Shown here: piece after piece, positions 113 to 17,445 of the stretch
Position numbering within the stretch: the first letter of the stretch is position 1
How the letters are laid out: every line of letters begins with the position of its first letter
Program-made: the position numbers and the translations under genes
NCBI GenBank assembly: GCA_020720115.1
Contig: DYPD01000036.1
Span: 1-33,895, forward strand
From: Thiomargarita sp.
GTDB lineage: Bacteria > Pseudomonadota > Gammaproteobacteria > Beggiatoales > Beggiatoaceae
DNA: 33,895 nucleotides
Direction: 5' to 3'
The notes under the pieces: model-generated
The model's database searches: none
The model's input: the letters and a program-made list of their open reading frames with translations, nothing else
What the model was told of the DNA's origin: nothing

Positions 113-874
113 ATGCAAAACACAAGATTTACTGACAAAGTAGTGCTGGTCACTGGCGGCACTGCTGGTTTGGGACGTGAAAATGCCATTGCCTTCGCCC
201 GCGAGGGCGCACAAGTGATCATCTGCGGGCGACGCGCACAGCAAGGCGCAGAAACCCTAGACATGATCCAAGCCATTGGTGGAAAAGCGATATTCTTGCC
301 ATGCGACATCACAGACATTGCCGAGGTCAAACAATTATTTGCAGAAATTCAAGGCAGATACGGCAGACTAGATTGCGCCTGTAACAACGCAGCCATTCCT
401 GATTCACCGCAAATTCTGCCCACGCACCAATACCCCAGCGAAGATTGGGACGCCATCTATTTCACCAATCTAAAAGGCACTTGGCACTGCATGAAATACG
501 AAATAGAAACCATGCTAAAAACTGGCGGCGGCGCTATTGTCAATATCGCCTCCGTGTTTGCTTATCGCGGCTCAGAAGGGCGCTGTGGCTATATCGCCAG
601 CAGTCACGGTATCGTTGGTTTAACCAAAACCGCTGCATTAGAATATGCCGCAAACAAAATCAGAATCAATTGTGTCTGCCCGGGCGGGATTTCTTCTGAG
701 CCAGACCATCCTTTAGCCGCAGAATATGAAAAAGAATACGCCTCTATGATGCCCATGAAACGCCTAGGGATACCTATTGAAATGGCTATGCCAGTGTTGT
801 TTTTATGCTCTGAAGAAGCCTCCTTTATCACTGGCGTCGTATTGCCAGTTGATGGCGGCTGGTCAGCCGGATAG
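113..874 (+). CDS. SDR-family oxidoreductase with missing catalytic Lys
   Basis: This is a 253-residue classical short-chain dehydrogenase/reductase, a family of NAD(P)H-dependent oxidoreductases. The dinucleotide-binding motif TGGTAGLG lies at residues 14-21, the NNAA-type motif at 91-94, the active-site Ser at 147 (NIAS) and the active-site Tyr at 160. In the canonical YxxxK motif the Lys at +4 is Ser164 (codon AGT at 602-604), although the surrounding residues (GIVGLTKTAALEY) are well conserved. The fold is therefore clear but normal redox catalysis is doubtful. The start is ATG with AGAAGG just upstream. It is the first gene of the + strand cluster, 26 bp before the methyltransferase gene, so it probably tailors the same product. 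The substrate is unknown. It may be an inactive or repurposed member. Confidence 0.9.
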   Translation: MQNTRFTDKVVLVTGGTAGLGRENAIAFAREGAQVIICGRRAQQGAETLDMIQAIGGKAIFLPCDITDIAEVKQLFAEIQGRYGRLDCACNNAAIPDSPQILPTHQYPSEDWDAIYFTNLKGTWHCMKYEIETMLKTGGGAIVNIASVFAYRGSEGRCGYIASSHGIVGLTKTAALEYAANKIRINCVCPGGISSEPDHPLAAEYEKEYASMMPMKRLGIPIEMAMPVLFLCSEEASFITGVVLPVDGGWSAG

Positions 875-900
875 AACTCATTAAATACCAGGAAAACACA

Positions 901-1500
901 ATGGAAAACAAAATCTCCGCTGAAGCCTATTTCGATGATTTAGCTGCCGAATATGAATATGAAGGCGTTGAAAGCGCCTTGCAAACCAATCATTTAGTTG
1001 AAGCCAAGAAAATTTTTGACACGCATCAGATTAAAGAAGGGCAGATTTTAGATTTAGCTTGTGGCACCGGCTTGCTTTCCCTATTGCTGGAAGGAAATTT
1101 CGAGTTTACCGGCATTGATGTATCCGAAAAAATGCTACAATCCGCCGCACAACGAGGTTATAAAACCATCCACAAACCACTAGAACAAGGATTGGCTGAA
1201 ATTGCCGATCAGTCTTATGATTTTGTCACCTGTTTAACCGCTTTGCTCTGTATTGAAGACATTCAACCTGTACTCAATAATATGAAAAGAATTGCCAGAC
1301 GAGGAATTCTCTTTACACTAGAAGAAATAACAGATGATTTTCTTGCCGAATTTCCCGCATCAGCTTACAACCACAGCCATCTCAGCTTCCCTGATGCCAA
1401 AGAAGATTATCGCGTGTTTGGCTGGACTACGCCAAAAGGTTTAGATATGTATGTGCGGATGATTTACCTTGAAACCCTAAAGCACCAGGAAAACAACTAA
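901..1500 (+). CDS. Small class I SAM-dependent methyltransferase
   Basis: A 199-residue protein with a Rossmann-like SAM-binding motif I (LDLACGTGLLSLLL, about residues 49-62), followed by an acidic motif at TGIDVSEKML. This is the layout of Methyltransf_11/25-type class I methyltransferases. It would move a methyl group from SAM to a small-molecule O, N or C acceptor. The C-terminal half is short (whole families are commonly 200-280 residues), leaving little room for a substrate cap. AGGA lies about 9 bases before the ATG. The stop codon overlaps the next ATG by one base (TAATG), indicating translational coupling to the SnoaL-like gene. The substrate cannot be told from sequence; context suggests a natural-product intermediate. 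Confidence 0.85.
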   Translation: MENKISAEAYFDDLAAEYEYEGVESALQTNHLVEAKKIFDTHQIKEGQILDLACGTGLLSLLLEGNFEFTGIDVSEKMLQSAAQRGYKTIHKPLEQGLAEIADQSYDFVTCLTALLCIEDIQPVLNNMKRIARRGILFTLEEITDDFLAEFPASAYNHSHLSFPDAKEDYRVFGWTTPKGLDMYVRMIYLETLKHQENN

Positions 1501-1922
1501 TGGCACTGTCAGAACAAGATAGGCAAAATATCAAAGCCACCTATATGCAAATGATGCAACGCATGATGGCGCTTGATTGGCAGAGTTTTGCTGAGATGTG
1601 TACTGACGACATGATTCATGTCACCGCTGATGGCCATCTCTTCCAAGCACAAGGTAAAGCTTCGCTAAATCAGCGGTTGACTGAACTGATGGGCGAGGTT
1701 GAAACCTTCGACATGGAATATTCTATCCGAGAAATCAATGGCGATGGTAACTGTGCTTATGTATTGACGCCCAACAAAGATATACTCAAGTTCTACGGCA
1801 GCGAAGAGACCTTAGTTCTGGACCATTGTCAAACCTTATCCATACTTGCACGGCAGCAGGATAATTCCTGGAAATTAAAACTGCAAATGTGCATTGTCCC
1901 AGAATCCTCCAAGCCCGATTAA
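1500..1922 (+). CDS. SnoaL-like / NTF2-fold protein, copy 1
   Basis: A 140-residue protein of the NTF2-like superfamily (SnoaL/DUF4440 style): an N-terminal helix with IKATYMQMMQRMMALDW, then alternating helix and strand, ending in the WKLKLQM strand. Such cone-shaped proteins often act as cyclases, isomerases or hydrolases, or as binding proteins, on small hydrophobic substrates in biosynthetic clusters. It is clearly paralogous to the gene at 7350-7778: both start M-L-S-E-Q-D (after one variable residue), share the DWQ motif near residue 27, an F-Q-Q-G motif and a WK-KLQ ending. It overlaps the methyltransferase stop by one base. The specific reaction is unknown. Confidence 0.8.
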   Translation: MALSEQDRQNIKATYMQMMQRMMALDWQSFAEMCTDDMIHVTADGHLFQAQGKASLNQRLTELMGEVETFDMEYSIREINGDGNCAYVLTPNKDILKFYGSEETLVLDHCQTLSILARQQDNSWKLKLQMCIVPESSKPD

Positions 1923-1959
1923 TCAACACCATGTTTTTCTACTTTAAGAGTGCCTTATC

Positions 1960-4092
1960 GTGTTGCTAGAACTGTTTCTAGTGGGCGCTGGCGTTTCCGC
2001 CTATCTGCGCAAACGCACTCAAGCCGCGCCCGCAACAGCGGAAGAACAACTTCTATCACCTGATAAAGAGCAACTCCAGTCTGAGCGAAGTCATAAAAAT
2101 CTATTGACTGACTTAAAAACAGCCATCTTAGGCAGTGATCGGCAGCAGCAAGAACTGGTACTCAATCCAGAAAAACAACAAGAGCTTGAAGAATATAGAC
2201 GAGCCTCTAACCGCAATTTTCGTTTAACCTCAATAGCTGCCGGCGTTGCTTTGTTTGGCGCGATCTTTCCTGCTTTTACCCTAGTTGGAATAGGCGCGGT
2301 GTTGTATTTATCCAAAGAAATATTTGCCACTTTCTGGAAATACGCCAAACAAGGGCACGTTCTTAATGTCTATCTGTTGTATGTAGTCATGGCAATAGGG
2401 ATGATTGCTGACGGGCATTTTGTGATTCTTGCCATCGCCAGCATTCTCAGTGCAATTGCCATGAAAATTGTCAAGAAAGCCGAAGAAACTTCGCAACATC
2501 AATTACTCAATGTGTTTCAAGGGCATCCCGCAAAAGTTTGGATAGAAAAAGATGGCGTTGAACTACAAGTTGATTTTTCTAGCATTACCAAAGGTGATTT
2601 GGTTATTGTCAATGGCGGAGAAATCATCCCCGTTGACGGCATTATTCAAACCGGCATTGGTACTATTGATCAACATGTTCTAACCGGCGAAAGCCAACCG
2701 GTAGAAAGAGAAATAGGGGACAAAGTCTTTGCTTCAACGCTTTTGCTCTCAGGCAGAATGGTAATTCTGGTAGAGGTCGCCGGGGAAGACACCATTGCCG
2801 ACAATATTGGCAAAATTCTCAATGACACCCAACATTACACGGATAATGTGATGGCACGCGGACAAAAGGTTGCCGACGACCTATTACCCGTCGAGCTTTG
2901 CGTTGGCGCAGTCACCATCGCCACCTTGGGCTTCACCGCCAGTCTTGCTGCACTCTGGTCTAATTTGGGCTCCAACATGGTCGTGCTCGGACCACTAAGC
3001 ACTTTGAATTATCTGCAAATTCTTTCTCGGCGTGGAATTTTAGTAAAAGACGGGCGAGTATTTGAAGCATTAGGAAAAGTAGACACCATCGTATTTGACA
3101 AAACTGGCACCCTGACCCTAGAACAACCAGCGGTTCATAAAATTCATCTACTCAACACAGAATACGATGAAAATACTATTTTGGCTTATGCCGCTGCCGC
3201 CGAACAACGTCTTCCTCATCCGATTGCACAAGCCATTGTTGCTAAAGCAAACGAGGCTTCTATCGTCATTCCTGAAATAGCCGATGCCCAATACGAACTG
3301 GGCTATGGTATTCAAGCAACTATTGAAGGCAAACTGATTCAAGTGGGTAGTTTGCGTTTTATGCAACAAAAGAATATTGCTATTCCAGAAGCAGTTCCTC
3401 CCTTACAAATCCAAGCCGAAGCCACAGGTTATTCTTTAATCTACGTGGCAATCAATGGAAAATTAATCAGTATGCTGGAACTCTGCCCAACCATTCGCCC
3501 AGAAGCTACTGAAGTTATTCAAACATTAAAACAACGTGGTTTGAATTTATATATTATTTCCGGCGATCACGAAGCGCCGACGCGGCATCTTGCGAAACAA
3601 CTTGGTATTGAGCATTATTTTGCAGAAACCTTGCCAGAAAACAAAGCCAAACTGATTAATCAACTCAAAGAAGAAGAACATTGTGTTTGTTTTATTGGCG
3701 ATGGCATCAATGATGCCATCGCGCTAAAATCAGCCCAGGCATCTATTTCTATTAAAGGCGCCTCTAGTATTGCCACCGATGTGGCACAAATTGTTTTCAT
3801 GGATGGTTCTCTACACCGCTTGCCTACATTATTTCAATTATCAGATGAATTTGAGCGCACTATGAATAAAAACCTACTGTCAGCAGTGGTGCCTGGTGCT
3901 ATTAATATTGCCGGTATTTATCTATTGCACACCCGCATTGCTATTAGCGTAGCTATCTATTATATGGGTACAGTGGTGGGGTTGGGGAATACGTTACAGC
4001 CGTTGCTCAAACATCAGGATGAACAGCAGGAACATCCAACCGATGAATCAATTATAAAAGCAGAAACAGAGGTTTCTGATAAAGCAAATTAA
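1960..4092 (+). CDS. P1B-like P-type ATPase lacking the CPC metal motif
   Basis: A 710-residue inner-membrane P-type ATPase. Visible are the actuator motif LTGES, the phosphorylation motif DKTGTLT (Asp380), the P1B-type nucleotide-domain motif LPHP and the hinge GDGINDA. About eight membrane segments come in pairs near residues 88-120, 135-170, 305-350 and 645-690. In heavy-metal pumps the helix before DKTGT carries CPC or a variant; aligned by the following Pro and RGILVK, this protein has Leu-Gly-Ser at 336-338. No N-terminal CxxC metal-binding domain is present; the first 80 residues are charged. ATP-driven transport is likely, but the cargo may not be a soft metal. It is the only transporter in the cluster. 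The start is GTG at 1960 with AAGAG upstream; TTG at 1963 is an alternative. Confidence 0.88.
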   Translation: MLLELFLVGAGVSAYLRKRTQAAPATAEEQLLSPDKEQLQSERSHKNLLTDLKTAILGSDRQQQELVLNPEKQQELEEYRRASNRNFRLTSIAAGVALFGAIFPAFTLVGIGAVLYLSKEIFATFWKYAKQGHVLNVYLLYVVMAIGMIADGHFVILAIASILSAIAMKIVKKAEETSQHQLLNVFQGHPAKVWIEKDGVELQVDFSSITKGDLVIVNGGEIIPVDGIIQTGIGTIDQHVLTGESQPVEREIGDKVFASTLLLSGRMVILVEVAGEDTIADNIGKILNDTQHYTDNVMARGQKVADDLLPVELCVGAVTIATLGFTASLAALWSNLGSNMVVLGPLSTLNYLQILSRRGILVKDGRVFEALGKVDTIVFDKTGTLTLEQPAVHKIHLLNTEYDENTILAYAAAAEQRLPHPIAQAIVAKANEASIVIPEIADAQYELGYGIQATIEGKLIQVGSLRFMQQKNIAIPEAVPPLQIQAEATGYSLIYVAINGKLISMLELCPTIRPEATEVIQTLKQRGLNLYIISGDHEAPTRHLAKQLGIEHYFAETLPENKAKLINQLKEEEHCVCFIGDGINDAIALKSAQASISIKGASSIATDVAQIVFMDGSLHRLPTLFQLSDEFERTMNKNLLSAVVPGAINIAGIYLLHTRIAISVAIYYMGTVVGLGNTLQPLLKHQDEQQEHPTDESIIKAETEVSDKAN

Positions 4093-4286
4093 ACTCTTTT
4101 ACCTGATACCATATGCTGCATAATAATGCCGCCATTTTCCAGCTTTAACATAGATACCAGCCTTTATCTGTAGCATCTCGCGGTAACTCAAGACAAACAA
4201 AGGTTTCACTTGATGTATAAACAAGTATTGAATATCAGCACTCATCTTTTCAGACAATTTCTTTTGATCAAGTCAAGGTAGGACAC

Positions 4287-7200
4287 GTGACGGAACAACT
4301 TCACAACACTCCGGGTGATATATACACCCATCGAATGAATCCGAATTTCGGGCGCATCTTAAAATCCATTGATATGCTCGAAGCCTTTGAAAGTGGGCAG
4401 GGTGAATATTTGTTTTATACCAAAAATGGGAAACAAATTCAGTGCTTAGACTTTCTGACTAATTTCGGACCGGATTTTTTTGGTATCAATAATGAAAAAT
4501 TAGTCAAAGCAGCAAAAAATTTCTTTGATGGCTCTTATGTAAATCTGAGCAATGCCAGTGTTCCGGCATCCGCTACTGCGCTGGCAGATAAATTAAATCG
4601 CATGACCAGTGCCGCCGCCGGTGGTGGGGATTATGTCATTAAGCTTGCTAATTCAGGCGCAGAAGGTGTGGAAGTTGCCTTCAAAGTCGTTGAATTATAC
4701 AAATACAAAAAAATAGACATGCTGCTGGAAAAATCCAGAAGCAATATTCAACGGGCAAAAAAAGCCATAGCAGCAGGGCAGGGATTTTCGCAAGAGTTTC
4801 TCCGCAAAGCAATGCAATTGATTAATGAAAAACGCTTTGCTTTCATTGTTGAACAGCAACAGCTTGATATTACTGCCTGTAGTGCTGATGATATTTTAGA
4901 TTTTATTTTTGCAGTCAATGAATACCTGTTGCTGCATACCGAACTAGCAACCATTGCGCTGGAAAAGAGTTTTCATGGTAAAACGCACGGTGCTTTGCGA
5001 GCTACTTATAAGAAAGAATACCGAAAACCCTACCTGCGCTACTTAAGCAAAACCCTGTTTGTTCCACCGGATGACGTGCAGGCTTTGCAAAATGCTTTCA
5101 CACAGCAAATGGAATTGTATTATCAAATCAAATTCCAAAATAACCAGTTGCATTGGCAAGAAGTGCACTGGATCAAAGCCTCTTCCATTATCATTGAACC
5201 AGTAATGGGCGAGGGCGGCGCCTATCAGTTGAATAAAGTCTTCTTGCAAGCCTGCCGGGATTTAGCAACTCAACATGACATTGCTTTAATCCTGGATGAA
5301 ATTCAATGTGGACTAGGACGTACCGGCTATTTTTTAAGCACTGAGTGGTCTGGAGTAAAAGGCGATCTTTATATTCTCAGCAAACAATTAGGCGGTGGCA
5401 TTGCCAAAATCAGCGCCACCATGATTGATTCTGCATTTTACGATAAAGATGATGATATTCTTAATCATTCCTCCACTTTCAATGAAGACACTTTCAGTAG
5501 TAAGATTGCCCTAGAAGTGTTGAATATTTATGAAACAGACAGGATACAAGAAAGGGTCTTAGACACAGGCACTTATCTCAAAAATCGCCTGGAATCGCTA
5601 CAACGTGAGTTCCCACAGGTCATTGAACAAGTCACTGGCATGGGGTTGTTGTTGGGCGTGCATATTGCTGATCAAAGTGATTCGTATTCGGTGTTCATTC
5701 GTTCTTTATGGGATATGGAAAGCCTGGGCGCAATCATCATTGCCCACTTGTTTAATGTATTTAATATCCGCTTGTTTGTCACTGTGTCTAATGACAGACC
5801 AGTGATACGCTTGCAACCCTGTGCTTATATCAAAAAAGAACAGTGCGACCATGTAGTTGCCGCTTTTCGGCATATTTGTGTGATTATTAGCCGTGACAAT
5901 GCCTATGAATTAATGAAGTTTCTTACCGGTCATCTGCAACCGGCGCAGCCTGATGAAATCAAAGATTTCAGCCATTTGCGCTCAACGCCTAAAGTAGATG
6001 TGGAAAACTACATTAAGCAAGGCGGCAAAACCGCTTTTATGCTGCTGCATATTCTGGATTACACACATCCAAAGAAATATCTAGATCATTCTCTAGGACA
6101 ATTCACTGATGAAGAACTGACCTTTTTAATTGATAAGTTCTACGGTATTTCTGATGATGTTTATATTGGTATACCAGATGCGCTTAAGATCAAATCCACC
6201 GCTGACTCTGAAGTGGTGCTAGTGCCCATCTATACCCTGGCAGGTCCTAGCAAAATCAAAAATGCTTTGCAATTGGCTAAAACTGGTGAAGATAACAACC
6301 AAGCTTTGCGCTATTTATTGCGCATCACCGAAACAGCCAAAGAAGAAGTCATTAAACTGGGCGGTACTGCGCTGGGCTATGGCGGCTATTGGTCTATTGT
6401 CGCGCAGTACGGCATGGGCTATCAGGATGAACGCATATTTGTTTCAGCTTTTGCAGATGAAAGTCGTGTGAAACAAACCACCGGCAATACGCTCACTGCC
6501 TATATCACAGCGCAGGCAATCCGTGAAGCCATTGCTAAAGTACATGCTAAAGGCGAAAGCGTAACACTGGCAGCCATTGGCATTAACGGCAATATCTGCA
6601 ACAGCGCGGCACTCAGTTTGTTGAAAGATGTAGAGCGTATTATCGCTGTTGCTACTTCGATTCCTTCTACTGAACGTGCGGGTATTTCCATTTGTCAGTA
6701 TTTATTGAAAATGATTGTACAAAACAATGAAATCAGCGGAGTTGCCAAAGCTTTATTGGCAATAGAATCGGTGCGCAATAAATTAGAAAATCCTGGATTC
6801 CGGCAAACCGCGCAAACTGCTTTGGAGAACGATGATCAAGCTAAAGTGCGTGAATTAAGCAAGGAGTTGTTAGATTGCCTGCGTAATGAAAGCAACTCTC
6901 CCGTTATTTTGTCTGTTGATCCTAAGTGGAGCATCACCCGGGCAAATATTATCTTTGCCGCCACCAATGATCCCAATGTGCTGATTTTAAAAGAAGATTT
7001 ATCTAAAGAACAGAATCAGGATATTTACATTATTGATACTTCCACGCCGCATAATATAGACAAGAATGTCAATGATTTACCCTATGTTCATCGGCGTGGT
7101 GGTGGCTTAGTAACCACCTCCTCAAAGCAGCAGTTGATTTTTAAAGGAACTGATTTGCATGACACGGATTTGTTTGCCTGTATTGCAGAAACCTTATTGG

Positions 7201-7337
7201 TTGCTATTGACGACGCGGCTAAACAGACTATCGGCGCTATTAGTGTGGAGGATTTGGAAAGCATGGCGCGGGCGGGTGAACGATTCGGTTTTATTCTGTC
7301 GGAGAATGAAGGTGAAACTGAGATTTTTACGGGTTAA
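4287..7337 (+). CDS. Class III aminotransferase fused to acyl-ACP reductase-like domain
   Basis: A 1016-residue fusion. Residues about 15-530 are a class III PLP aminotransferase: NSGAEGVEVAFKV for cofactor phosphate binding, a DEIQCGLGRTG segment, and the Schiff-base Lys366 in SKQLGGG. An extra insertion lies near residues 145-215. Residues about 570-1016 resemble cyanobacterial long-chain acyl-ACP reductase (AAR): LGYGGYWSI, TTGNTLTAYI, a Rossmann-like GINGNIC, the DLFACIAETLL segment and the terminal ERFGF. Relative to AAR as I recall it, the dinucleotide motif is altered (GATGDIG to GINGNIC) and the residue matching the acyl-accepting Cys before IDGGYP is Ile. The expected role is reduction of an acyl thioester to an aldehyde followed by transamination to an amine, as proposed for tambjamine TamH and prodigiosin PigE. 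GTG start after AGGTAGGA. Confidence 0.85.
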   Translation: MTEQLHNTPGDIYTHRMNPNFGRILKSIDMLEAFESGQGEYLFYTKNGKQIQCLDFLTNFGPDFFGINNEKLVKAAKNFFDGSYVNLSNASVPASATALADKLNRMTSAAAGGGDYVIKLANSGAEGVEVAFKVVELYKYKKIDMLLEKSRSNIQRAKKAIAAGQGFSQEFLRKAMQLINEKRFAFIVEQQQLDITACSADDILDFIFAVNEYLLLHTELATIALEKSFHGKTHGALRATYKKEYRKPYLRYLSKTLFVPPDDVQALQNAFTQQMELYYQIKFQNNQLHWQEVHWIKASSIIIEPVMGEGGAYQLNKVFLQACRDLATQHDIALILDEIQCGLGRTGYFLSTEWSGVKGDLYILSKQLGGGIAKISATMIDSAFYDKDDDILNHSSTFNEDTFSSKIALEVLNIYETDRIQERVLDTGTYLKNRLESLQREFPQVIEQVTGMGLLLGVHIADQSDSYSVFIRSLWDMESLGAIIIAHLFNVFNIRLFVTVSNDRPVIRLQPCAYIKKEQCDHVVAAFRHICVIISRDNAYELMKFLTGHLQPAQPDEIKDFSHLRSTPKVDVENYIKQGGKTAFMLLHILDYTHPKKYLDHSLGQFTDEELTFLIDKFYGISDDVYIGIPDALKIKSTADSEVVLVPIYTLAGPSKIKNALQLAKTGEDNNQALRYLLRITETAKEEVIKLGGTALGYGGYWSIVAQYGMGYQDERIFVSAFADESRVKQTTGNTLTAYITAQAIREAIAKVHAKGESVTLAAIGINGNICNSAALSLLKDVERIIAVATSIPSTERAGISICQYLLKMIVQNNEISGVAKALLAIESVRNKLENPGFRQTAQTALENDDQAKVRELSKELLDCLRNESNSPVILSVDPKWSITRANIIFAATNDPNVLILKEDLSKEQNQDIYIIDTSTPHNIDKNVNDLPYVHRRGGGLVTTSSKQQLIFKGTDLHDTDLFACIAETLLVAIDDAAKQTIGAISVEDLESMARAGERFGFILSENEGETEIFTG

Positions 7338-7349
7338 AGGGAATAAACA

Positions 7350-7778
7350 ATGAGTTTATCTGAACAAGATGTAACAGCTATCAAACAGACTTACGACACA
7401 ATGATGCAGTGTTTTCTCAACTTTGATTGGCAAGGCTATGCTTCTGCCTATACCGAAGATGCGCTTTTCCTCGCACCGGAAGGTGACATATTTCAAACCC
7501 AGGGACAACAATCCCTAGTAGATTGGACGGCGGGAATGATGAAAGATTATGGCATTGAACGGGTGGAAGTCGTTGACGGGATAGAAAAGATTGAAGGTGA
7601 TGGTGCTTGCGCTTATTTGTACACGCTAGAAACCCGTGAGAAGCTCAAATTGAGTGGCAATGAAAACATGCTGGAATTTAAAGGCAGCAGCGTGTCGGTG
7701 TTTGCAAAGCAAAGCGATGGTGCTTGGAAAATCAAATTGCAGATTTGGAACAAACAAGCTGTGATTCAAGGAGACTGA
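7350..7778 (+). CDS. SnoaL-like / NTF2-fold protein, copy 2
   Basis: A 142-residue NTF2-like protein, paralogous to the product of 1500-1922. Both have the M-L-S-E-Q-D start, the DWQ motif, a D-F-Q-QG segment, a GDG-CAY strand and a WKIKLQ ending, but overall identity is modest. The two copies bracket the P-type ATPase and the aminotransferase fusion, so they arose by an old duplication within the cluster. They could form a heteromeric cone or act on successive intermediates. AAAGGGAA lies before the ATG, and the gene begins 12 bp after the preceding stop. No fixed catalytic residue can be read from the sequence, and the function is inferred only from fold and context. Confidence 0.8.
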   Translation: MSLSEQDVTAIKQTYDTMMQCFLNFDWQGYASAYTEDALFLAPEGDIFQTQGQQSLVDWTAGMMKDYGIERVEVVDGIEKIEGDGACAYLYTLETREKLKLSGNENMLEFKGSSVSVFAKQSDGAWKIKLQIWNKQAVIQGD

Positions 7779-7780
7779 AT

Positions 7781-8305
7781 ATGAAACCAGTATGGGTGCT
7801 ATTGATTGCCAGCTTGTACTTCTTACCTGCCACTCATCGTCAAGTAGTCGCAGAACCCGCCGCAAAGCCGTCAATCATTTCGGAGAATCCCCATAAAGCA
7901 GTTATACAACATAGTATTGAAGTTTTGAATCAAGGCGATACCAGTGCAGTAGCGCAAGCCATTGCGCCAGATTACAAGTATTATTCACCTTCTAACGCGG
8001 CAACGCCCTTATCTAGGCAAGAAATGATGGCGCAATTGAAATCTGTCTTAGCGGCTTTTCCCGATCTCCGTTGGCAGATTAAAGCCATGTATGCGGCAGA
8101 GGATTGGGTGATTACCCGTTTTGTTATCAGCGGCACGCAGCAGGGTGATTATATGGGCATTCCCGCTAATGGCAGAAAGATTGAATACAGTTCTATTGTG
8201 ATCTGTCATTTTAAGGACGGTAAGATCATTGAAGAAAGAGAAGAACTAAATCTGCTGGGCATTATGCAGCAATTGAATCTGGAATTAAAACCTAAAGAAA
8301 ACTAG
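7781..8305 (+). CDS. Exported SnoaL-like polyketide-cyclase-family protein
   Basis: A 174-residue protein with an N-terminal signal peptide (MKPVWVLLIASLYFLPAT, cleavage probably near VVA-EP) followed by a SnoaL (ester cyclase) domain: HSIEVLNQGD, YSPSNAA, FPDLRWQIKAMYAAEDWV, GIPANGRKIEYSS and FKDGKIIEEREELN. The domain matches the larger SnoaL group better than the two NTF2-like neighbours. The ATG at 7781 was chosen because GGAGA lies just upstream and it gives a proper signal peptide; the frame is open further upstream but that part overlaps the previous gene. Export is unusual for this family, whose members usually act in the cytoplasm. A periplasmic tailoring or binding step for the cluster product is the likely meaning. 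Confidence 0.85.
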   Translation: MKPVWVLLIASLYFLPATHRQVVAEPAAKPSIISENPHKAVIQHSIEVLNQGDTSAVAQAIAPDYKYYSPSNAATPLSRQEMMAQLKSVLAAFPDLRWQIKAMYAAEDWVITRFVISGTQQGDYMGIPANGRKIEYSSIVICHFKDGKIIEEREELNLLGIMQQLNLELKPKEN

Positions 8306-8350
8306 GTTTTAATTATTCTCAACCCTTATAGGATATAGGAACATCAGTAT

Positions 8351-10051: not shown

Positions 10052-10061
10052 CTAAACTGGC

Positions 10062-10868
10062 ATGAGCATTCTCTGGCTAGATGAGCAAGCGGGGCAAAAT
10101 GCTCAAGTGTGCGGTAACAAGGCGGCGATTTTAAGCCGCCTTAGCGCCCGCTATGCAGTGCCGCTTGGTTTCTGCATTGCAGCGCATACGGGTGCAGCGG
10201 AAATTATTCAAGCCTATGAAATTTTAAGCAAAAAGCTGTGCGCTAAGGATGTTTCCGTTGCCGTCCGCTCATCTGCGACCGATGAAGACGGACAGGGTTC
10301 TTCGTTTGCTGGTCTATATGCCAGCTATCTGAATGTGATGGGTGCAAAGCATTTGCTGGAAGCGGTGGAATCTTGCCTGGCTTCCGCCGCATCCGAGCGG
10401 GTGGCGGCTTATCGGAAAAAGTTTGCACCTGCCGCACAATCCCATATTGCGGTGCTGGTGCAGCAGTTCATTCCCGCCGCATGTGCAGCCGTAGTATTCA
10501 GCGCCAATCCGGTCAATGGTAAGCCAGATGAAATCATCATCAATGCCCACTGGGGACTGGGAGAGTCTATTGTTGCTGGGCGCGTTATGCCTGACACCTA
10601 TGTATTCAGCAAAGTGGAAAATCGTATCACTACCCAGCAAATCGGCGCAAAATCTAGCCTGATGCGCCCAAATCAGGGCAATGGGATGGTCGAAACCTTA
10701 ACGCCGCCCGCGATGGCTACTGCTCTGGTGTTGAGCGAAGCACAAATATTCGCCGCTGCACAATTGGCACTAGAACTTGAACACCAGTGTGGATATCCGG
10801 TGGATGTAGAATGCGCCTGGTATAATGAAAAATTATATCTGTTACAATGCCGACCAATCACCACTTGA
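10062..10868 (+). CDS. Stand-alone ATP-grasp (PPDK_N) half of a split dikinase
   Basis: A 268-residue protein comprising only the pyruvate-phosphate-dikinase N-terminal ATP-grasp domain. Motifs are CGNKAAIL (nucleotide-binding Lys), VAVRSSATDEDGQGSSFAG, WGLGESIVAGRVMPDTY and the terminal VDVECAW...LLQCRPITT. In PEP synthase, rifampin phosphotransferase and PigC this module is at the N-terminus of one chain; here it ends cleanly after RPITT and is translated separately. It should phosphorylate the His of the product of 8351-10051 in trans. The start context is weak (no clear Shine-Dalgarno), so translation may depend on coupling across the 10-bp gap. An alternative is that the pair forms through a different, unknown partner. 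Confidence 0.85.
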   Translation: MSILWLDEQAGQNAQVCGNKAAILSRLSARYAVPLGFCIAAHTGAAEIIQAYEILSKKLCAKDVSVAVRSSATDEDGQGSSFAGLYASYLNVMGAKHLLEAVESCLASAASERVAAYRKKFAPAAQSHIAVLVQQFIPAACAAVVFSANPVNGKPDEIIINAHWGLGESIVAGRVMPDTYVFSKVENRITTQQIGAKSSLMRPNQGNGMVETLTPPAMATALVLSEAQIFAAAQLALELEHQCGYPVDVECAWYNEKLYLLQCRPITT

Positions 10869-10883
10869 TATAAGGAGATGTAT

Positions 10884-10895
10884 ATGAATCAATGA
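10884..10895 (+). other. Three-codon ORF with a strong ribosome binding site
   Basis: After the ATP-grasp gene there is AAGGAG at 10872-10877, well spaced before an ATG that reads Met-Asn-Gln and then TGA. It may be the decayed start of a lost gene or a chance site. The rest of the 129-bp gap to the hydrolase gene shows nothing clear. Confidence 0.3.
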
Positions 10896-10997
10896 ACATT
10901 GACCTATTCAAGCATAGTGTGCATTTTCTCAGCCGTTGTTTATACAAAATCCAATGAATCCATTCTTAATTCAATCCATACCCTATAAGGAAACTTG

Positions 10998-12485
10998 ATG
11001 ATGTTCAAGAAACTCACCTGTTTATACGCCCTTGCGCTATTTCCCGCCTTGTCTGCGGTCAGTGCTGAAAACCATGCCCTAGAAGCAACCGCCTGTCCTG
11101 ACGGCTATGCAGAAACCCAAGTCCAATGGGAATGCAGCTACTTAAGCGTGCCAGAAGACCACGCCAAACCTGACGGCAAGCAAATTAAAATCTTCGTTGC
11201 TAAAGCCAAAAGTCGTAGCAGCACACCCGTAGCTGACCCGGTGTTATTTGCTGGTACTTCAATTGGCGGCAAAATCGCTGAAATGATTCCGGTGCTATTT
11301 CCTTTATACCCAGACTTCACCAAAGATCGTGATTTCATTATGTACGATCATCGCGGCGTAGGGAAATCCATGCCTAATCTGGAGTGCCCAGAAATAGATG
11401 AAGCCCACAACAAGGATTTTGGCAAAGATATTAGCATAGAAGAACATGTAAAACATGAGGTGGATGCGGTGAATGCCTGCGGTGTGCGTCTAGGCAAAGA
11501 CAATAACCTGAATGTTTATAACACGGAACAAACCGCGTTAGATATGGAAGCCATTAGAAAAGCCTTTGGCTATGAAAAGATCAATATCTTCAGTTATTCT
11601 TATGCCACTTATTTAACCCTGACCTATATGCGGAAGTTTCCCGCTCATATTCGTAGCGTGATTATGGATTCTGCAATTCCTTCTGATATTTGGTTGTATT
11701 CAAATTTGCTGGCAGCGCAAGTGAATAGTTTAAACAGCGTCTTTGATAACTGCAAAGCCGATGCGGATTGCAATGCCAAGTATCCTAAACTACAAAATGC
11801 CTATTCAGCTATTATTCAACGCTTAGATAAAGCACCGCTTAAATTGGCAGTAAAGAATCCTCATTGTGCTGAAGGTGCTCAATGTGATGCAGTAGAAATT
11901 CCGGTGAATGACAACCTGTTTAGCGGCTATATTGTGAATGAACTCTTTACCGCGAATCCAATCCCCAGATTACCCAAGCTCATCTATGAAACCTATAAAG
12001 AAGACTACAATGGGTTGATTGAAGCCATCAATGAGCAACAAGCAGGTGGGCATGTCATTGGCACCAGTTGGGGACGTTACTATTCAACCGTATGCCATGA
12101 TATGGTAGATTCTGAAAACAAAGAGACTATTGAAAAAAGTATCGAGATGTATTCCTGGGTCGGTTTACCCTATTACCAACCGGCAGTGCTGGGTGGAGAA
12201 ATTAAAAACATGTGTAACCAATGGGTCAGTAGCACCGCTGCAAAAGAACAGGACATGCCCGTGCATTCTGATCTGCCGGTGCTGATTATGCAGGGTGAAT
12301 ATGATCCCTATGCGCCGCCAGTGTGGGGTAAACATATTTCTGAAACCCTGCCAAACAGCCATTTCTATGTGATGAAAGGTCTGACCCATGTAACAGTTCT
12401 GGGAGAACCCTGTCCTATCAGTATTGCGGAACAATTTATTGCCGATCCCAATAAAGAACCGGAGACAAGCTGTATCGGCAAATAA
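10998..12485 (+). CDS. Exported alpha/beta hydrolase with TAP-like C-terminus
   Basis: A 495-residue hydrolase with a signal peptide (MMFKKLTCLYALALFPALSA, cleavage near VSA-EN) and the fold of tripeptidyl aminopeptidase/proline iminopeptidase-like enzymes. The oxyanion region is followed by DHRGVGKS; the nucleophile Ser201 lies in FSYSYAT, where the usual GxSxG has Ser and Ala instead of the glycines. The Asp is in GEYDPYAPP and the His in GLTHVTVLG. Several Cys residues fit periplasmic disulfides. It would cleave an amide or ester outside the cytoplasm, possibly removing a protecting group from the cluster product or giving self-resistance; this is inference. The start was chosen at ATG 10998 after AAGGAAA; ATG 11001 is equally possible. 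A terminator follows. Confidence 0.87.
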   Translation: MMFKKLTCLYALALFPALSAVSAENHALEATACPDGYAETQVQWECSYLSVPEDHAKPDGKQIKIFVAKAKSRSSTPVADPVLFAGTSIGGKIAEMIPVLFPLYPDFTKDRDFIMYDHRGVGKSMPNLECPEIDEAHNKDFGKDISIEEHVKHEVDAVNACGVRLGKDNNLNVYNTEQTALDMEAIRKAFGYEKINIFSYSYATYLTLTYMRKFPAHIRSVIMDSAIPSDIWLYSNLLAAQVNSLNSVFDNCKADADCNAKYPKLQNAYSAIIQRLDKAPLKLAVKNPHCAEGAQCDAVEIPVNDNLFSGYIVNELFTANPIPRLPKLIYETYKEDYNGLIEAINEQQAGGHVIGTSWGRYYSTVCHDMVDSENKETIEKSIEMYSWVGLPYYQPAVLGGEIKNMCNQWVSSTAAKEQDMPVHSDLPVLIMQGEYDPYAPPVWGKHISETLPNSHFYVMKGLTHVTVLGEPCPISIAEQFIADPNKEPETSCIGK

Positions 12486-12508
12486 CCTCAATCTGAAGCA
12501 GTTCTAAC

Positions 12509-12547
12509 AATTAGGGTGGTCAATAATACAACCACCCTAATTTTTTT
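12509..12547 (+). terminator. Strong intrinsic terminator after the hydrolase gene
   Basis: A perfect 12-bp inverted repeat (AATTAGGGTGGT with ACCACCCTAATT) encloses a 10-base loop and runs straight into seven T. It lies 23 bp after the hydrolase stop on the + strand and separates the upstream operon from the NRPS-like gene, which therefore needs its own promoter or read-through. Confidence 0.93.
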
Positions 12548-12609
12548 ATGTGTATCTCTCACATAAAATGCTGCTTAGCCACTTAGATTCTTGTTGACCA
12601 AGGTGAATT

Positions 12610-15600
12610 ATGACGCAAGCAACTCAAACCCCTTCCTTTAGTTGTTTTATGCTGGGTGAAACCAGTTTACTCATGCGCTGCGCTGAGTATTGGTTAGCAC
12701 AAGGGCATTCAATTCAGGGCATTTTTTCGCCTGATCCTGAAGTGATCGCCTGGGCAAAACAACGGGGTTTAAGTTGCTTTACGCAGCAATCCACTTTACT
12801 GGACGCATTGCAAGAACAAAGCTTCGATTATCTTTTCAGTATCGTCAATGGCTGGGTGATTCCAACTGAAGTATTGCAACTGCCCCGCAAAGCTGCAATC
12901 AACTACCATGATTCACTGTTGCCTCGTTATGCGGGCGTGCATTCAACTACTCATGCGCTGCGGCTGGAAGAAAAACAGCACGGTGTGACTTGGCATGAAA
13001 TGACAGCGGGTATTGATACGGGCGATATTTTGCAACAGGTGCCAGTGGAGATCGCGCCCGACGACACCGCCTTGAGTTTGAATCTGCACTGCTATGCCGC
13101 TGCTTATACTGCATTTACTGAATTAGTTCAGGCGCTTATAGAAAATCGTCTAAAGCCAGTTAAACAAGACCTCAGTCAGCGCAGTTACTATGGTCTATGG
13201 CATCGTCCTGAAGCCGCTTGTGCGTTCAATTGGGCAGAACCCGCTGAACGCCTGGATGCCTTGGTGCGTTCACTGACGATGGGCAATTACCGCAACGCGG
13301 TCGGTTTACCCAAACTGAGTTTCGGCGATCAGGTATTGATTCCCTTAAAAACCAAAGTGTTAGATCAGGCATCTCACCAGCCGCCAGGTACTTTGCTGGC
13401 GCTTCAAGAGGGCGCTCTTCAGGTTGCCAGCGCGAGCCAAGATTTGGCTATCTATCAATTGTCTTCAACGAGCGGAGAAATTTTGCCGACCGCCGCCTGG
13501 ATGCAATGTTGCGGTGTGTCAATCGGCGCACAGCTTGCCTCGCCCACCGCTGAGCAATGGCAAGGCTTAACTGAATTAGATGCCGGTTATTGCCGCTATG
13601 AGCCGTATTGGACGCGCCAGTTGGCTGCCTTGACGCCGCTCAATTTGCCGCTGGCGGAGGCTACCGACAAACCGGTGTCTGTGCAGACCTATTCGGCACA
13701 TTGCGATGCGGCTTTTCTGACTTTAAGTTTTGCCATTTTGCTGGCGCGTTTGAGTCAGGGCGACAAAGTCAGTTTAGGTTTCAGCTATCCGGCATTAACG
13801 CAAGCCGTTGTGGGCTATGAAGATTATTTTGCGCAGCGCGTGCCCTTAAACCTCCAGATTGACACAGCACACACCTTTGCTCAGGCGCGCCAGGCATTTC
13901 AAGAAAAACTAGAAGAAATTCAAGCCAAAGGCTGCTATTTGCAGGATTTGGTGTTGCGTGAACCGACGCTGAAAGGCGGCGCAGGCTTGGCTGAGTTGCC
14001 TGCCATTGTCTGGCTGGCGCTGGAGCAGAAAACGACTACGGCGGATGAAAGCGCGATCTGGTTTGCCCTCAGTGGCGGGCGGGCGCACTGGCCAGCGGCT
14101 TGGCAACCGCTGATGGGACATTTCCAACAATTGCTCAGGGCGATAGCTGAGTATCCCGACTTGCCGCTGGCGCACTTACCGCTGCTAGACACACAGGCGC
14201 TTGAGCAACTCCAGGCGTGGCACAGCGCAACAGTAGATTACCCACAAAATCAAACCCTTGTGGATTGGTTTGAACAGCAAGCCGCGCAAACCCCAGACCA
14301 TGTTGCGCTGCGCTGTGACAGCGAAAACCTCAGCTATGCCGAGCTGAATCTTAAAAGCAACCAATTGGCGCACTATTTACTCAGCCTGAGCAGCGATAAC
14401 GCCGATAAGCTATGGGCGATTTGCGTCGAGCGTTCTCCGACGCTGCTGATTAGCCTGTTGGCGGTGCTCAAAGCGGGCGCAGCCTATGTGCCCATTGATC
14501 CGACCTATCCCACAGCACGCATTTTGGCGATGTTGCAAGACAGCCGCACGCCCCTGCTGCTGACGCAAAGCCAGCTACGTCCGCGTTTGCCGCTGGCAGA
14601 ACTGGCGCACGAATACCGTTTGCTGTGCCTAGATGAACTCAGTCTGGAAGCGCAGCCCGCCACCAATCCTGCACTGAACATTGCCGTCAACAGCCTGGCG
14701 TATGTGATTTACACCTCCGGCTCGACGGGCACGCCAAAAGGCGTGATGGTGGAACATAGTGCGCTGGCGCTACATCTTCAGGCTATTTTGCAACATTATC
14801 AGCCCACCGCTGCGGATAAAGTGTTGCAGTTTGCCTCCTTAAGTTTTGACATTTCTTTGGAACAACTGTTCTCCGCCTGGTTGCGTGGCGCTTGCGTCGT
14901 TTTGGTCAAAAGCAGCCTGATGCCGCCGGCAGATTTACTGGCTTTGCTGCAAACTCAAGCGGTAACTATTGCTGATGTTCCGCCAGCCTATTGGCAAGAA
15001 ATGCTTGTACTTGAAAGCCTTAGCGAAAACTTATCAACCTTGCGCATCCTGATTCTGGGCGGCGAAGCCGTGCCTTCAGCACTGGCGCAACAAACCCGCG
15101 ACCGCTGCCCCGCTTTAACTATTTTCAATGCTTACGGACCGACCGAAGCGGCAATTACCCCAACGCTGCACCGCCTGCCCAGCGTATTGCCCGCACAGAC
15201 TAGCCCCTATGTTTCTATCGGTCGGGCGCGTGCCAACACCCGCGTGTACATCCTTGATGCGCACCACCAGCCCTTACCGCTGGGCGTGCCGGGCGAACTC
15301 TGCATCGCTGGCGTAGGGCTGGCGCGTGGCTACCTTAATGCGCCCGCATTAACCGCAGAAAAATTCCTGCAAATTGAACTATTTGGCAAAACCGAGCGGA
15401 TTTATAAAACCGGTGACCTGGCACGCTGGCTGCCCGACGGCACGCTCGACTTCCTTGGACGCCTTGACCATCAAATCAAATTGCGCGGCTATCGCATTGA
15501 TTTAGGAGAAATTGAAGCCACGTTACTGGAGCATCCAGCGGTGCAGGAAGCGGTGGCAGTGATCTATAGCAAAAATAACCAAAAACGCCTCATCGCCTAT

Positions 15601-17445
15601 CTGACCCTGACCGCAGGCGCGGACGCCAGCGCCGTGACCGCCGAACTCAAGGCGACTTTAGCTGCGCGTTTGCCCAATTACATGCAGCCCAGCCATCTGA
15701 GCGTGTTGGAGCGCCTGCCGCTAACGTCCAACGGCAAAATTGACCGCAAAGCCTTAGCCGCGTTAGAACCCGAAAGCCTGGCGGACAAGTATGTCGCGCC
15801 CACCTCCAGCATTGAACAACAACTGGTTGAAATTTGGCAAAATGCCCTAGAAATTGAACGCATCGGCGTGCTAGACAACTTTTTTGATTTAGGTGGAAAC
15901 TCATTACTCGGATTGCGCCTAGTCTCTGAATTACAAGCAGCGTTCAATATCAACTTTGGTATTCATGACTTATTTGAAATGTCGAATATCAGAACCCTAG
16001 CGGAGAGCATTGAACAAGGACATTGGCAATTGTCCACCCGCCAAAGCGCTATTCCAGAGCAACCGCGTGATGGCAGATTGTATCCAGTAGTGCTGGAAGT
16101 GGAAAGCTTGTTTAAGATGTTTACCGCTTTTGGCATGAATGATCAATTGTTCTGGATGCCATTTCATCTGTATGGCAAACTCGATCTGGTTGCGCTTCAG
16201 CACGCATTTGATGCGATGCTACAACGCCATGAACCGCTCAGAACCAGCCTAATTCTTGACAACGAAGAAGCTTTACAGCGCATTGAACCTTTTCAATCCC
16301 TGACAATCCCCCAGCTAGATTTCAGCACGCTGGATGCAACCCAACAGCAAGCAGAAATACTCAAGTTTTTTTCCGCAGCACGTTTCAAAACGGTCAAACC
16401 TGGTTATATGATAGACAGCGTGCTCATCAAATTAGGCAAAGAAAATCACATTTTTGCTTACTGCATCCATTATTTCAGCTTTGATGATCAGGCAATTACC
16501 CTCTTTAATCAAGAGTTCTCCACCTTATACCAAGGTTTTCATCAACAGCAACCGGTTGCATTACCTGCATTGCCAATTCAATATGCTGATTACGCCCAGT
16601 GGATAAAAGAACAGCTTACTGATACCAGCGATGAACCTGTGTATGGTGCAGAAACCTTAGCGCAATTCAAAGGCTCACAATGTCCCTGTGATTTTCCACC
16701 CAACCCAGAAAATCCACCGCAGCCAGTGATGAAGAAATTAAGCTTTGACCGCAAAACGGCACACGCCTTTGCGGTTTTGAACTCTGGCGTGCAAACCACA
16801 GAATTAATGATTTCTACTTTATTACTGCACACGCTATTGCACCGCTTGAGCGGGCAAAATCAAATCATCAGCATGGCAGACTTCAACTACAGAACCCGTA
16901 AAGAACTCAAAAGCATTCTAGGGCATTATGCGATGTCAGCCTATATCTGTACAGATTTCAGCGATGATCCCAGCTTTAATGAAATGCTCGAACGTGCTAA
17001 ACACTCCATGCGCGATTTTTATCGCAACATTTCTAATCTCAGCTATTGCAAAAAACTCCTGGATAATTTAATTTTTCATCCCGAAAGCACCGCTTTTTCG
17101 GATGTTTGTTGTTTAGCTGTGATCTATCCAGCGTTCTTTGAACCTACTTTGCCGCTGGCTGGTTTGCAATCTCAGTATGAAGAAGCCTTTCCTTACACCT
17201 TTTTCATTCATTTCTACATGCACCTAACCCACAGCAAAGATCGCTTGTTTGGCTCATTAAACTATGACCGCGCCCGTTTCAAAGCAGAAACACCGCATAC
17301 CATGATGTGTCAATTCAGGAATATCTTAAACAACGTAGCCGCTAATCCTAATCAACCCATTTCGCAGATTCCTTTGTTCTCCACTGAAGATGCCCGTTAT
17401 GTGATCCATGATTTGTCTAATGAATATACGCAATGGCAATTCTAA
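12610..17445 (+). CDS. NRPS-like enzyme: formyltransferase, partial C, A, carrier, degenerate C
   Basis: A 1611-residue non-ribosomal peptide synthetase-like protein. Residues 1-240 are a formyltransferase domain with Asn98, His100 (NYHDSLLPRYAG) and Asp136 (GIDTGDI), all intact, so it should formylate an amino group using formyl-tetrahydrofolate. Residues about 310-525 look like the C-terminal half of a condensation domain without HHxxxDG. Residues about 545-1030 are an adenylation domain (YTSGSTGTPKG, NAYGPTE, YKTGDLARW, SNGKIDRKAL). My manual alignment gives the ten-residue code DIEDIGAITK, whose acidic positions hint at a basic amino acid. A carrier domain follows with the phosphopantetheine Ser1098 (LGGNSLLG). 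The last domain, about 1165-1600, is condensation-like but has HYFSFDD in place of HHxxxDG. No thioesterase or reductase follows. Start ATG after AAGGTG. Confidence 0.9.
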   Translation: MTQATQTPSFSCFMLGETSLLMRCAEYWLAQGHSIQGIFSPDPEVIAWAKQRGLSCFTQQSTLLDALQEQSFDYLFSIVNGWVIPTEVLQLPRKAAINYHDSLLPRYAGVHSTTHALRLEEKQHGVTWHEMTAGIDTGDILQQVPVEIAPDDTALSLNLHCYAAAYTAFTELVQALIENRLKPVKQDLSQRSYYGLWHRPEAACAFNWAEPAERLDALVRSLTMGNYRNAVGLPKLSFGDQVLIPLKTKVLDQASHQPPGTLLALQEGALQVASASQDLAIYQLSSTSGEILPTAAWMQCCGVSIGAQLASPTAEQWQGLTELDAGYCRYEPYWTRQLAALTPLNLPLAEATDKPVSVQTYSAHCDAAFLTLSFAILLARLSQGDKVSLGFSYPALTQAVVGYEDYFAQRVPLNLQIDTAHTFAQARQAFQEKLEEIQAKGCYLQDLVLREPTLKGGAGLAELPAIVWLALEQKTTTADESAIWFALSGGRAHWPAAWQPLMGHFQQLLRAIAEYPDLPLAHLPLLDTQALEQLQAWHSATVDYPQNQTLVDWFEQQAAQTPDHVALRCDSENLSYAELNLKSNQLAHYLLSLSSDNADKLWAICVERSPTLLISLLAVLKAGAAYVPIDPTYPTARILAMLQDSRTPLLLTQSQLRPRLPLAELAHEYRLLCLDELSLEAQPATNPALNIAVNSLAYVIYTSGSTGTPKGVMVEHSALALHLQAILQHYQPTAADKVLQFASLSFDISLEQLFSAWLRGACVVLVKSSLMPPADLLALLQTQAVTIADVPPAYWQEMLVLESLSENLSTLRILILGGEAVPSALAQQTRDRCPALTIFNAYGPTEAAITPTLHRLPSVLPAQTSPYVSIGRARANTRVYILDAHHQPLPLGVPGELCIAGVGLARGYLNAPALTAEKFLQIELFGKTERIYKTGDLARWLPDGTLDFLGRLDHQIKLRGYRIDLGEIEATLLEHPAVQEAVAVIYSKNNQKRLIAYLTLTAGADASAVTAELKATLAARLPNYMQPSHLSVLERLPLTSNGKIDRKALAALEPESLADKYVAPTSSIEQQLVEIWQNALEIERIGVLDNFFDLGGNSLLGLRLVSELQAAFNINFGIHDLFEMSNIRTLAESIEQGHWQLSTRQSAIPEQPRDGRLYPVVLEVESLFKMFTAFGMNDQLFWMPFHLYGKLDLVALQHAFDAMLQRHEPLRTSLILDNEEALQRIEPFQSLTIPQLDFSTLDATQQQAEILKFFSAARFKTVKPGYMIDSVLIKLGKENHIFAYCIHYFSFDDQAITLFNQEFSTLYQGFHQQQPVALPALPIQYADYAQWIKEQLTDTSDEPVYGAETLAQFKGSQCPCDFPPNPENPPQPVMKKLSFDRKTAHAFAVLNSGVQTTELMISTLLLHTLLHRLSGQNQIISMADFNYRTRKELKSILGHYAMSAYICTDFSDDPSFNEMLERAKHSMRDFYRNISNLSYCKKLLDNLIFHPESTAFSDVCCLAVIYPAFFEPTLPLAGLQSQYEEAFPYTFFIHFYMHLTHSKDRLFGSLNYDRARFKAETPHTMMCQFRNILNNVAANPNQPISQIPLFSTEDARYVIHDLSNEYTQWQF

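Follow-up and report, generated by a model that had tools for sequence, protein, structure and literature searches.

Several described enzymes resemble parts of the locus reported here. In the tambjamine YP1 cluster of Pseudoalteromonas tunicata, PtTamH is laid out as a transaminase (residues 1–500) followed by a thioester reductase (residues 547–941, Cys887), with CrmG and SeAAR as the closest structures; together with PtTamA it yields a C12 amine via C12-acyl carrier protein (ACP), no amine having been seen from C12-CoA, and its transaminase accepts C7–C14 aldehydes (PMC9594044). PigC uses ATP in condensation (PMC6667630), and phenylphosphate and phenylphosphoamidate synthases phosphorylate phenol or aniline, the phosphate passing from ATP via a histidine (PMC7500099). 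A 2022 review lists three peptides formylated by formyltransferase (F) domains, and in linear gramicidin N-formylation and reductive release occur together (PMC8949500). The present locus lies on a contig of Thiomargarita sp. (GenBank GCA_020720115.1, DYPD01000036.1) that was analysed over its entire 33,895 bases and is called the window (contig C68 of genome G000; G, C and L denote genomes, contigs and loci, G000 being the window's own genome). Eleven genes, all on the forward strand and with successive gaps of -1 to 194 bp, fill positions 113–17445 and encode, among other proteins, a TamH-type aminotransferase-reductase fusion, a split dikinase, a P-type ATPase and a formylating nonribosomal peptide synthetase (NRPS). 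The locus is real, orphan and probably biosynthetic. It is read here, plausibly and with due reserve, as an orphan cluster, probably a single transcription unit, whose product would be a small N-formylated metabolite that contains an amine.

The fusion enzyme carries its aminotransferase at the N-terminus and an acyl-ACP reductase (AAR)-type thioester reductase at the C-terminus of one chain; an earlier note on this DNA, made from the sequence alone, had recognised a real fusion and had given its parts in the reverse order. The class III aminotransferase occupies residues ~35–530, with the pyridoxal phosphate (PLP) lysine at Lys366, and its best solved relative is CrmG (5dds), aligned over residues 35–534; the reductase occupies residues ~582–1016, with Cys965. 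A full-length AlphaFold 2 (AF2) model (predicted local distance difference test, pLDDT, 86.4; predicted TM-score, pTM, 0.83) matched CrmG with a TM-score of 0.91 by target. Because the 50 Foldseek matches listed for the full-length protein were all aminotransferases, the reductase part was folded and searched separately. This part had hardly any sequence-profile match; its model, built from a 19-sequence alignment, reached a pLDDT of 83.0, and its first four PDB matches were cyanobacterial acyl-ACP reductase (6jzy, E 3.7e-14, TM-score by target 0.77); the NAD(H)-binding TAD domain from the carmabin pathway came next. Lys366 and Cys965 were invariant in 20 of 20 aligned sequences, the window's included, the window fusion being 22–30% identical to its aligned relatives. 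The fusion bears every tested feature of an acyl-thioester-to-amine enzyme, a predicted catalysis: in principle, it would turn a carrier-bound acyl thioester into an aldehyde by reduction (Cys965) and this into a primary amine by transamination (Lys366).

In domain order, PLP lysine, catalytic cysteine and nearest solved structures (CrmG and acyl-ACP reductase) the window fusion is like PtTamH (PMC9594044), a likeness drawn from the published description of PtTamH and not from its sequence. In PigE the domain order is reversed relative to the window fusion, as judged from match positions in 4ppm, some of them weak. Unlike the tambjamine YP1 cluster as described in the cited passages, the window holds no TamA, TamT or 4-methoxy-2,2'-bipyrrole-5-carbaldehyde (MBC) gene, and its dikinase is split and by profile is not PigC/TamQ. 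The earlier note had regarded the locus as undescribed and had matched it to no known pathway; the locus is indeed orphan and biosynthetic-looking, and PtTamH (PMC9594044) had been overlooked. A literature search for at least three of thioester reductase, aminotransferase, fatty amine and phosphoenolpyruvate (PEP) synthase found that paper alone.

The fusion and dikinase were followed through the named genomes. The full-length fusion as sole query in a scan of their contigs gave no match; the reductase alignment as query gave 34 loci. A single frame matched both the aminotransferase and the reductase queries in 29 of these, and in a thirtieth (L026) the two were matched by phmmer and tblastn, respectively. 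A one-piece dikinase of PEP-synthase/RPH/PigC-like kind was found near the TamH-type fusion in 6 of the 34: directly adjoining in L020, L023, L024 and L030, in the same 1769-residue frame in L021, and ~4.5 kb off in L015. This pair, which follows the logic of TamH plus TamQ, recurs across phyla. SDR (short-chain dehydrogenase/reductase)-like genes were near the fusion in 9 of the 34. A tree was built from 34 sequences (those of 30 named loci, L013, L014, L184 and the window). In it the window fusion was a deep lone branch, nine of ten SDR-linked fusions fell in one clade, and the dikinase-linked fusions were scattered; a sister position of the window fusion to the dikinase-linked ones was not found. 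Closer to the window the enzyme is rare: the reductase domain was found in 1 of 42 genomes of the family (the window's) at E 1e-8 and in 2 of 369 genomes of the class at 1e-10, the window's own being one of the two, and a diverged fusion in another context, below the 1e-8 threshold, occurs in G003 and G027 of the family.

Some of these loci are of interest in themselves. Two dikinase paralogues are present in L020, L023 and L030; the fusion with two different one-piece paralogues, seen in a proteobacterial metagenome-assembled genome (MAG) (UBA6915, L020/L011), in Candidatus Methylomirabilis (L023) and in Massilia atriviolacea (L030), is a recurrent three-gene module in three distant lineages, for which we know of no product. 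In a Sericytochromatia MAG (L021, 1–5310) the dikinase, aminotransferase and reductase matches share one 1769-residue frame with an open 5' end. In L035, L037, L042 and L045 (Xenorhabdus) and in L184 (Photobacterium) two SDR genes follow a fusion of TamH-type architecture; for L184, tblastn alone matches the reductase part, and carrier-like and ketosynthase-like proteins, judged by eye, are encoded upstream.

The dikinase of the window is encoded by two genes. The His half (566 residues) has a phosphohistidine domain with SHAAVLAR (His523) and the ATP half (268 residues) an ATP-grasp domain with RSSATDED, both motifs being intact. The ATP and His halves scored 172.5 and 110.7 bits with the PigC model (cut-off 1300) and 154.1 and 130.3 bits with the RedH model (cut-off 1350), and each half reached similar bits across the PEP-synthase, RedH, PigC and RPH models. 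With scores so far under these cut-offs, identity with PigC was rejected, and the "split PigC-like" enzyme of the earlier note is instead a split dikinase that groups with other separate halves. Six one-piece dikinases near TamH-type fusions, when scanned, likewise scored under both cut-offs.

The best relatives of the window His half within the family are also separate halves (G004, 9.3e-92; G405, 3.2e-82); a further one is that of Thermomicrobium roseum (6.9e-46), with its ATP half 2.9 kb upstream, these E-values stemming from separate searches and being only roughly comparable. In four more of these relatives (G580, G517, G521 and G563) the ATP half lies at most ~0.5 kb downstream. The order of the halves varies, the ATP half being first in G004 and the two halves on opposite strands in G405. 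In an IQ-TREE analysis seven separate His halves, the window's included, formed one group with an ultrafast bootstrap (UFBoot) of 100, which T. roseum joined with 59 and outside of which the split half of G563 (L192) fell; one member, G544 (L190), was deemed split by length, no ATP half having been seen. An earlier tree was weak (UFBoot 33–62), and addition of two family members brought the value to 100. Since the window halves group with other separate halves, they represent an established enzyme of two genes rather than a single gene that mutation has broken. Among characterised enzymes known to have this two-piece layout, phenylphosphate synthase and phenylphosphoamidate synthase are the nearest. 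Phenylphosphate synthase has a His-bearing alpha and a separate beta subunit, as in the two window halves, and adjacent locus tags of Thauera (112830, 112831) give alpha then beta, the window order (PMC7500099). The likeness is one of description and not of sequence, and the window dikinase, unlike phenylphosphate synthase, sits in a natural-product-like locus. In G004 a split dikinase lies within ~5 kb of an ATPase of the same family as the window's, beside polyketide synthase (PKS) and NRPS genes.

The NRPS reads, in Pfam, as Formyl_trans_N/C, AMP-binding, PP-binding and a single terminal Condensation domain, the thiolation (T) domain being at 15817–16005. As the earlier note had stated, it has no release domain: Pfam found neither Thioesterase nor NAD_binding_4. 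The stretch between the F and adenylation (A) domains aligns with L071 and L120, where Pfam marks the C-terminal half of a condensation (C) domain (33.6 bits, over the cut-off, in L071; 27.9 bits, below it, in L120); by this alignment, and not by Pfam, a partial C domain may also lie there in the window. Ahead of A-T the formyltransferase has NYHDSLLP and GIDTGDI, which supply the catalytic N-x-H and D residues. The ten specificity positions read DIEDLLAITK (DTEDLLAITK in L112), and their acidic residues give only a hint of a basic substrate. In the terminal C domain the motif is HYFSFDD, aligned with HHIVSDG of Txo1, the second His being Tyr. The synthetases of linear gramicidin, anabaenopeptilide and kolossin A have, like the window, a formyltransferase at the NRPS start (PMC8949500); the window NRPS differs from them in being a single module with a terminal C domain and no reductase (R) domain in cis. 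In glidonin-type synthetases, where a C domain is also near the NRPS end, this domain attaches putrescine and the second His of HHxxxDG matters for amine attachment, the residue that is Tyr in the window (PMC10587159).

The best NRPS relative, in G404, is 54% identical over the first 500 residues and 49.8% over 1318 aligned positions. It consists of F-A-T, a C-family domain with HHLVVDGVSW (an epimerase-like motif) and a thioesterase (TE), and an ATPase of the same family as the window's directly follows it. In G022 an ATPase of this family lies directly 3' of an F-A-T gene, with a large NRPS-like gene further on; G404 has a second copy (L259), beside which the 1.2 kb up to the contig end hold no ATPase, and the contig of G024 stops 116 bp after the formylating NRPS gene. 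Homologous F-A-T modules end in NAD_binding_4 (L243), TE (L244, L245), a C-family domain plus TE (L112) or none of these (L071, L120, L259). In all ten class loci of the formylating NRPS that were read (of 11 with E up to 2.6e-39, G163:C60 being the unread eleventh), no fusion, ATPase or dikinase was found in the available stretch of 5 to 19 kb, and no fusion was found in the available stretch at four other places in the family. Two unusual forms were encountered. In L259 (1365–5366) of G404 a PilZ domain (PF07238, 30.8 bits against 22.5) is placed between two adenylation-domain parts and would suggest control by cyclic di-GMP; in L242 (5211–9872) a luciferase-like monooxygenase is apparently inserted between the two AMP-binding parts of a formylating NRPS.

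The ATPase scores 383.8 bits with TIGR01525 (cut-off 346.25) and has an intact DKTGT, features that it has in common with the P1B heavy-metal ATPases; unlike these it lacks the CPx motif (CPC/CPH/SPC), with GSNMVVLGPLSTLN at that position, and the motif is likewise absent in 82 of 82 relatives longer than 560 residues (shorter ones, of 560 residues or less, such as L121, were left out). The protein is multicopy, 33 of the 42 family genomes, the window's included, having matches at 1e-100, with at most 19 per genome. Another difference is that some relatives directly adjoin NRPS genes: a same-strand assembly-line gene lies within 1.5 kb of 10 of the 82 (that of L151 being only an 870-residue adenylation protein), 8 of these 10 belonging to the clade of the window ATPase, which comprises 20 relatives (local support 0.825; 1.0 for its 18-member core), and 2 to the other 62. 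The window ATPase itself, 8.5 kb from its NRPS, is not in this adjacency count. An NRPS was found within 5 kb in 5 of the 20 nearest ATPase loci (one of which, L120, is without an ATPase) and in 2 of the 40 that come next; of 20 control aminotransferase loci, 2 had one. The notion that the ATPase is always next to an NRPS was rejected by both counts; taken over all loci the association is modest, being most marked where the genes adjoin directly, and, given the small control and the relatedness of the sequences, it is a lead and not a test.

EgtB and EgtD genes, scoring above their cut-offs, lie ~3 kb from the closest ATPase relative (65%, G004). CPx-less ATPases lie near ergothioneine-type genes in L103 (3701–11325; EgtB and EgtD over the cut-off) and near an EgtD-like protein under the cut-off in L067 (2877–6096). 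Look-ups of the ATPase on plasmids gave no biosynthetic context, and literature searches joining P-type ATPase with nonribosomal peptide synthetase and Beggiatoa, or with biosynthetic gene cluster and CPx motif, found no paper.

At the level of sequence motifs, the locus conserves the residues that catalyse reduction of thioesters, transamination and the transfer of formyl and phosphohistidine groups; substrates, order of steps and product are inferred. Under the cluster reading, the fusion would act like PtTamH on an acyl-ACP, fatty or other, and give a primary amine, while the NRPS would make N-formyl-aminoacyl-S-T; acyl-ACP is preferred as the substrate because of the acyl-ACP-reductase fold and the behaviour of PtTamH on fatty acyl-ACP, by which the NRPS thioester need not be the substrate. 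The split dikinase would use ATP to phosphorylate one partner, at a carbonyl oxygen or, in the manner of phenylphosphoamidate and phenylphosphate synthases, at an amine or hydroxyl, whereby the amine and the acyl part might be joined or the product masked. Phosphorylation of a carbonyl oxygen has been proposed for PigC-type ligases. The SDR, methyltransferase and SnoaL-like proteins would tailor the product, the ATPase would export it or protect the producer, and the hydrolase would process or trim it outside the cell. It is a good deal more doubtful that the dikinase is specifically the bond-former, joining the TamH-made amine to the N-formyl-aminoacyl group as an amide or even a formamidine after phosphorylating the amine or a carbonyl oxygen such as that of the formyl group, with the CPx-less ATPase moving the organic product.

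Several observations weigh against the cluster reading. None of the other genomes searched has the full gene set, by which the genes may be neighbours without a joint product, and 28 of the 34 named fusion loci have no dikinase within the examined stretch. With a terminal C domain that lacks the second His, the joining step is unaccounted for. The window has no acyl-ACP synthetase of its own, and the NRPS T domain is its only carrier out of 15 in the genome. Possible acyl-ACP sources elsewhere in the genome, the first of which speaks for the cluster reading, are a 687-residue fatty-acyl-AMP-ligase-like protein on C102 that ends in a carrier domain, as in the TamA/PtTamA layout (L235, 3364–5427; PRK09192 380.5 bits, under the cut-off of 600), and a 507-residue AMP-ligase-like protein beside a 95-residue carrier frame on C108. 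A conserved whole locus was rejected for the genomes searched, and the comparison of gene neighbourhoods that the earlier note had proposed went largely against it (reductase in 1 of 42 family genomes; fusion near the formylating NRPS in 0 of 4 family and 0 of 10 class loci), although parts of the set turn up together elsewhere: the formylating NRPS with an ATPase in G404 and G022, the split dikinase with an ATPase and PKS/NRPS genes in G004, and the fusion with a dikinase in 6 of 34 loci. These three overlapping groupings suggest a mosaic of modules that have met before and argue mildly against chance neighbours.

The route proposed in the earlier note, in which the fusion's reductase acts in trans on the N-formyl-aminoacyl-S-T of the NRPS and frees an aldehyde, which the aminotransferase converts to an N-formyl vicinal diamine, is a serious rival to the acyl-ACP route, and we consider it unlikely without dismissing it. 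The NRPS has neither TE nor R domain, its terminal C domain is degenerate, and its T domain is the sole carrier encoded in the window. Homologous F-A-T modules end variously, and L243, a single-module F-A-T with NAD_binding_4 in cis, makes reductive release of an N-formyl-aminoacyl thioester plausible; linear gramicidin unites N-formylation and reductive release (PMC8949500). The reductase of the window, however, is folded like acyl-ACP reductase, unlike the NAD_binding_4 reductase of L243, PtTamH acts on C12-ACP and C7–C14 aldehydes (PMC9594044), and no fusion accompanies the formylating NRPS in the ten class loci read.

The same ten loci, which also lack ATPase and dikinase, and the four family loci without a fusion would fit two or more unrelated neighbouring units, the upstream amine/dikinase operon and the NRPS making different things. 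We rate this as somewhat less likely still: the gaps of 126 and 124 bp on either side of the hydrolase gene and the recombination of modules among relatives speak for it, but all eleven genes are on one strand with gaps of at most 194 bp, and the ATPase family links the two halves, being beside the formylating NRPS in G404 and G022 and near the split dikinase in G004. It is very improbable that the locus serves a pathway of tambjamine or prodiginine type with its bipyrrole (MBC) genes on another contig: TamH architecture and a dikinase are two tambjamine hallmarks (PMC9594044, PMC6667630), but the dikinase is far below the PigC (1300) and RedH (1350) cut-offs and no MBC gene was recognised in the window (Pfam) or near carriers on six other contigs (C35, with an 86-residue carrier frame, not among them), no profile search aimed at MBC enzymes having been made.

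The features of the window are collected in Table 1. The row of SDR, methyltransferase, three SnoaL-like proteins, ATPase, fusion, split enzyme, hydrolase and NRPS listed in the earlier note was borne out, all genes being on the same strand with family-level support (Pfam, NCBIfam) for all listed proteins; two assignments, the first DUF4440/SnoaL-like protein and "PigC-like", are weak. DUF4440/SnoaL-like proteins 1 and 2 are 38% identical to each other, and for SnoaL-like protein 3 the ATG at 7781 is the likelier start over the tool-predicted TTG at 7724. The hydrolase belongs to the carboxylesterase A/Hip1/secreted-protease family (best PDB matches 8e18, 5uoh and 7sfm, plus TnmK2, 8g5t).

Table 1. 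Features of the window, with positions, strand and supporting evidence
Feature	Positions	Strand	Evidence
Dispersed-repeat end, MITE (miniature inverted-repeat transposable element)-like, contig edge	1–80	none	~170 bp repeat, inverted ends
SDR, FabG-like	113–874	+	PF13561 1.9e-54; best NCBIfam NF004818 280.9 bits, cut-off 336 not reached
Class I S-adenosylmethionine (SAM) methyltransferase, MetW/UbiE-like	901–1500	+	PF13847 1.1e-13
DUF4440/SnoaL-like protein 1	1500–1922	+	PF14534 6.5e-5, slightly under cut-off
P-type ATPase, P1B-like, without CPx motif	1960–4092	+	TIGR01525
TamH-type aminotransferase-reductase fusion	4287–7337	+	Profiles, alignment, AF2 model
DUF4440/SnoaL-like protein 2	7350–7778	+	PF14534 1.6e-8
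SnoaL-like protein 3, exported, signal-like N-terminus	7781–8305	+	PF07366 2.8e-33; signal judged by eye
Split dikinase, middle and phosphohistidine half	8351–10051	+	PF00391 9.2e-22
Split dikinase, ATP-grasp (PPDK_N) half	10062–10868	+	PF01326 2.1e-59
TAP-like alpha/beta hydrolase, exported, signal-like N-terminus	10995–12485	+	PF00561, PF08386
Formylating NRPS	12610–17445	+	Pfam

Genes for a pilin and a CHASE2 cyclase follow the gene row on its 3' side, on the opposite strand. Promoter-like and terminator-like patterns in the window were not above shuffled sequence (32 against 33.7 and 19 against 21.5, respectively), so that a single transcript remains a prediction. The 80 bases at the 5' edge have at least 24 further copies in the genome with at least 91% identity across at least 76 of the bases, 40 of 93 candidates having been scored; copies with both ends define a repeat of ~170 bp with inverted ends, and the end pattern has a single match within the window, at 1–80. 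Since the contig starts inside this repeat, it broke in a mobile-looking element, ~32 bases 5' of the SDR gene. Large PKS fragments cut at contig ends were found on other contigs of the same genome (L237, L238, L239), some of which could belong to one cluster.

Each part of the locus resembles known kinds of enzyme; the whole combination is, in the genomes searched, peculiar to this one. The proposed chemistry, in which an acyl thioester is turned into an amine, a formyl cap is added and a phosphohistidine enzyme drives joining with ATP, is rare. If the proposal is true, amine formation of the TamH type would extend beyond the tambjamines, split dikinases would gain a role in secondary metabolism, and the question would be raised of what a P-type ATPase without its metal motif does beside NRPS genes; if it is otherwise, the labels "split PigC" and "heavy-metal ATPase" would be seen to mislead in such loci. 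The points of lasting interest are that amine-maker and dikinase are paired in several phyla and that ATPases without a CPx motif stand next to NRPS genes.

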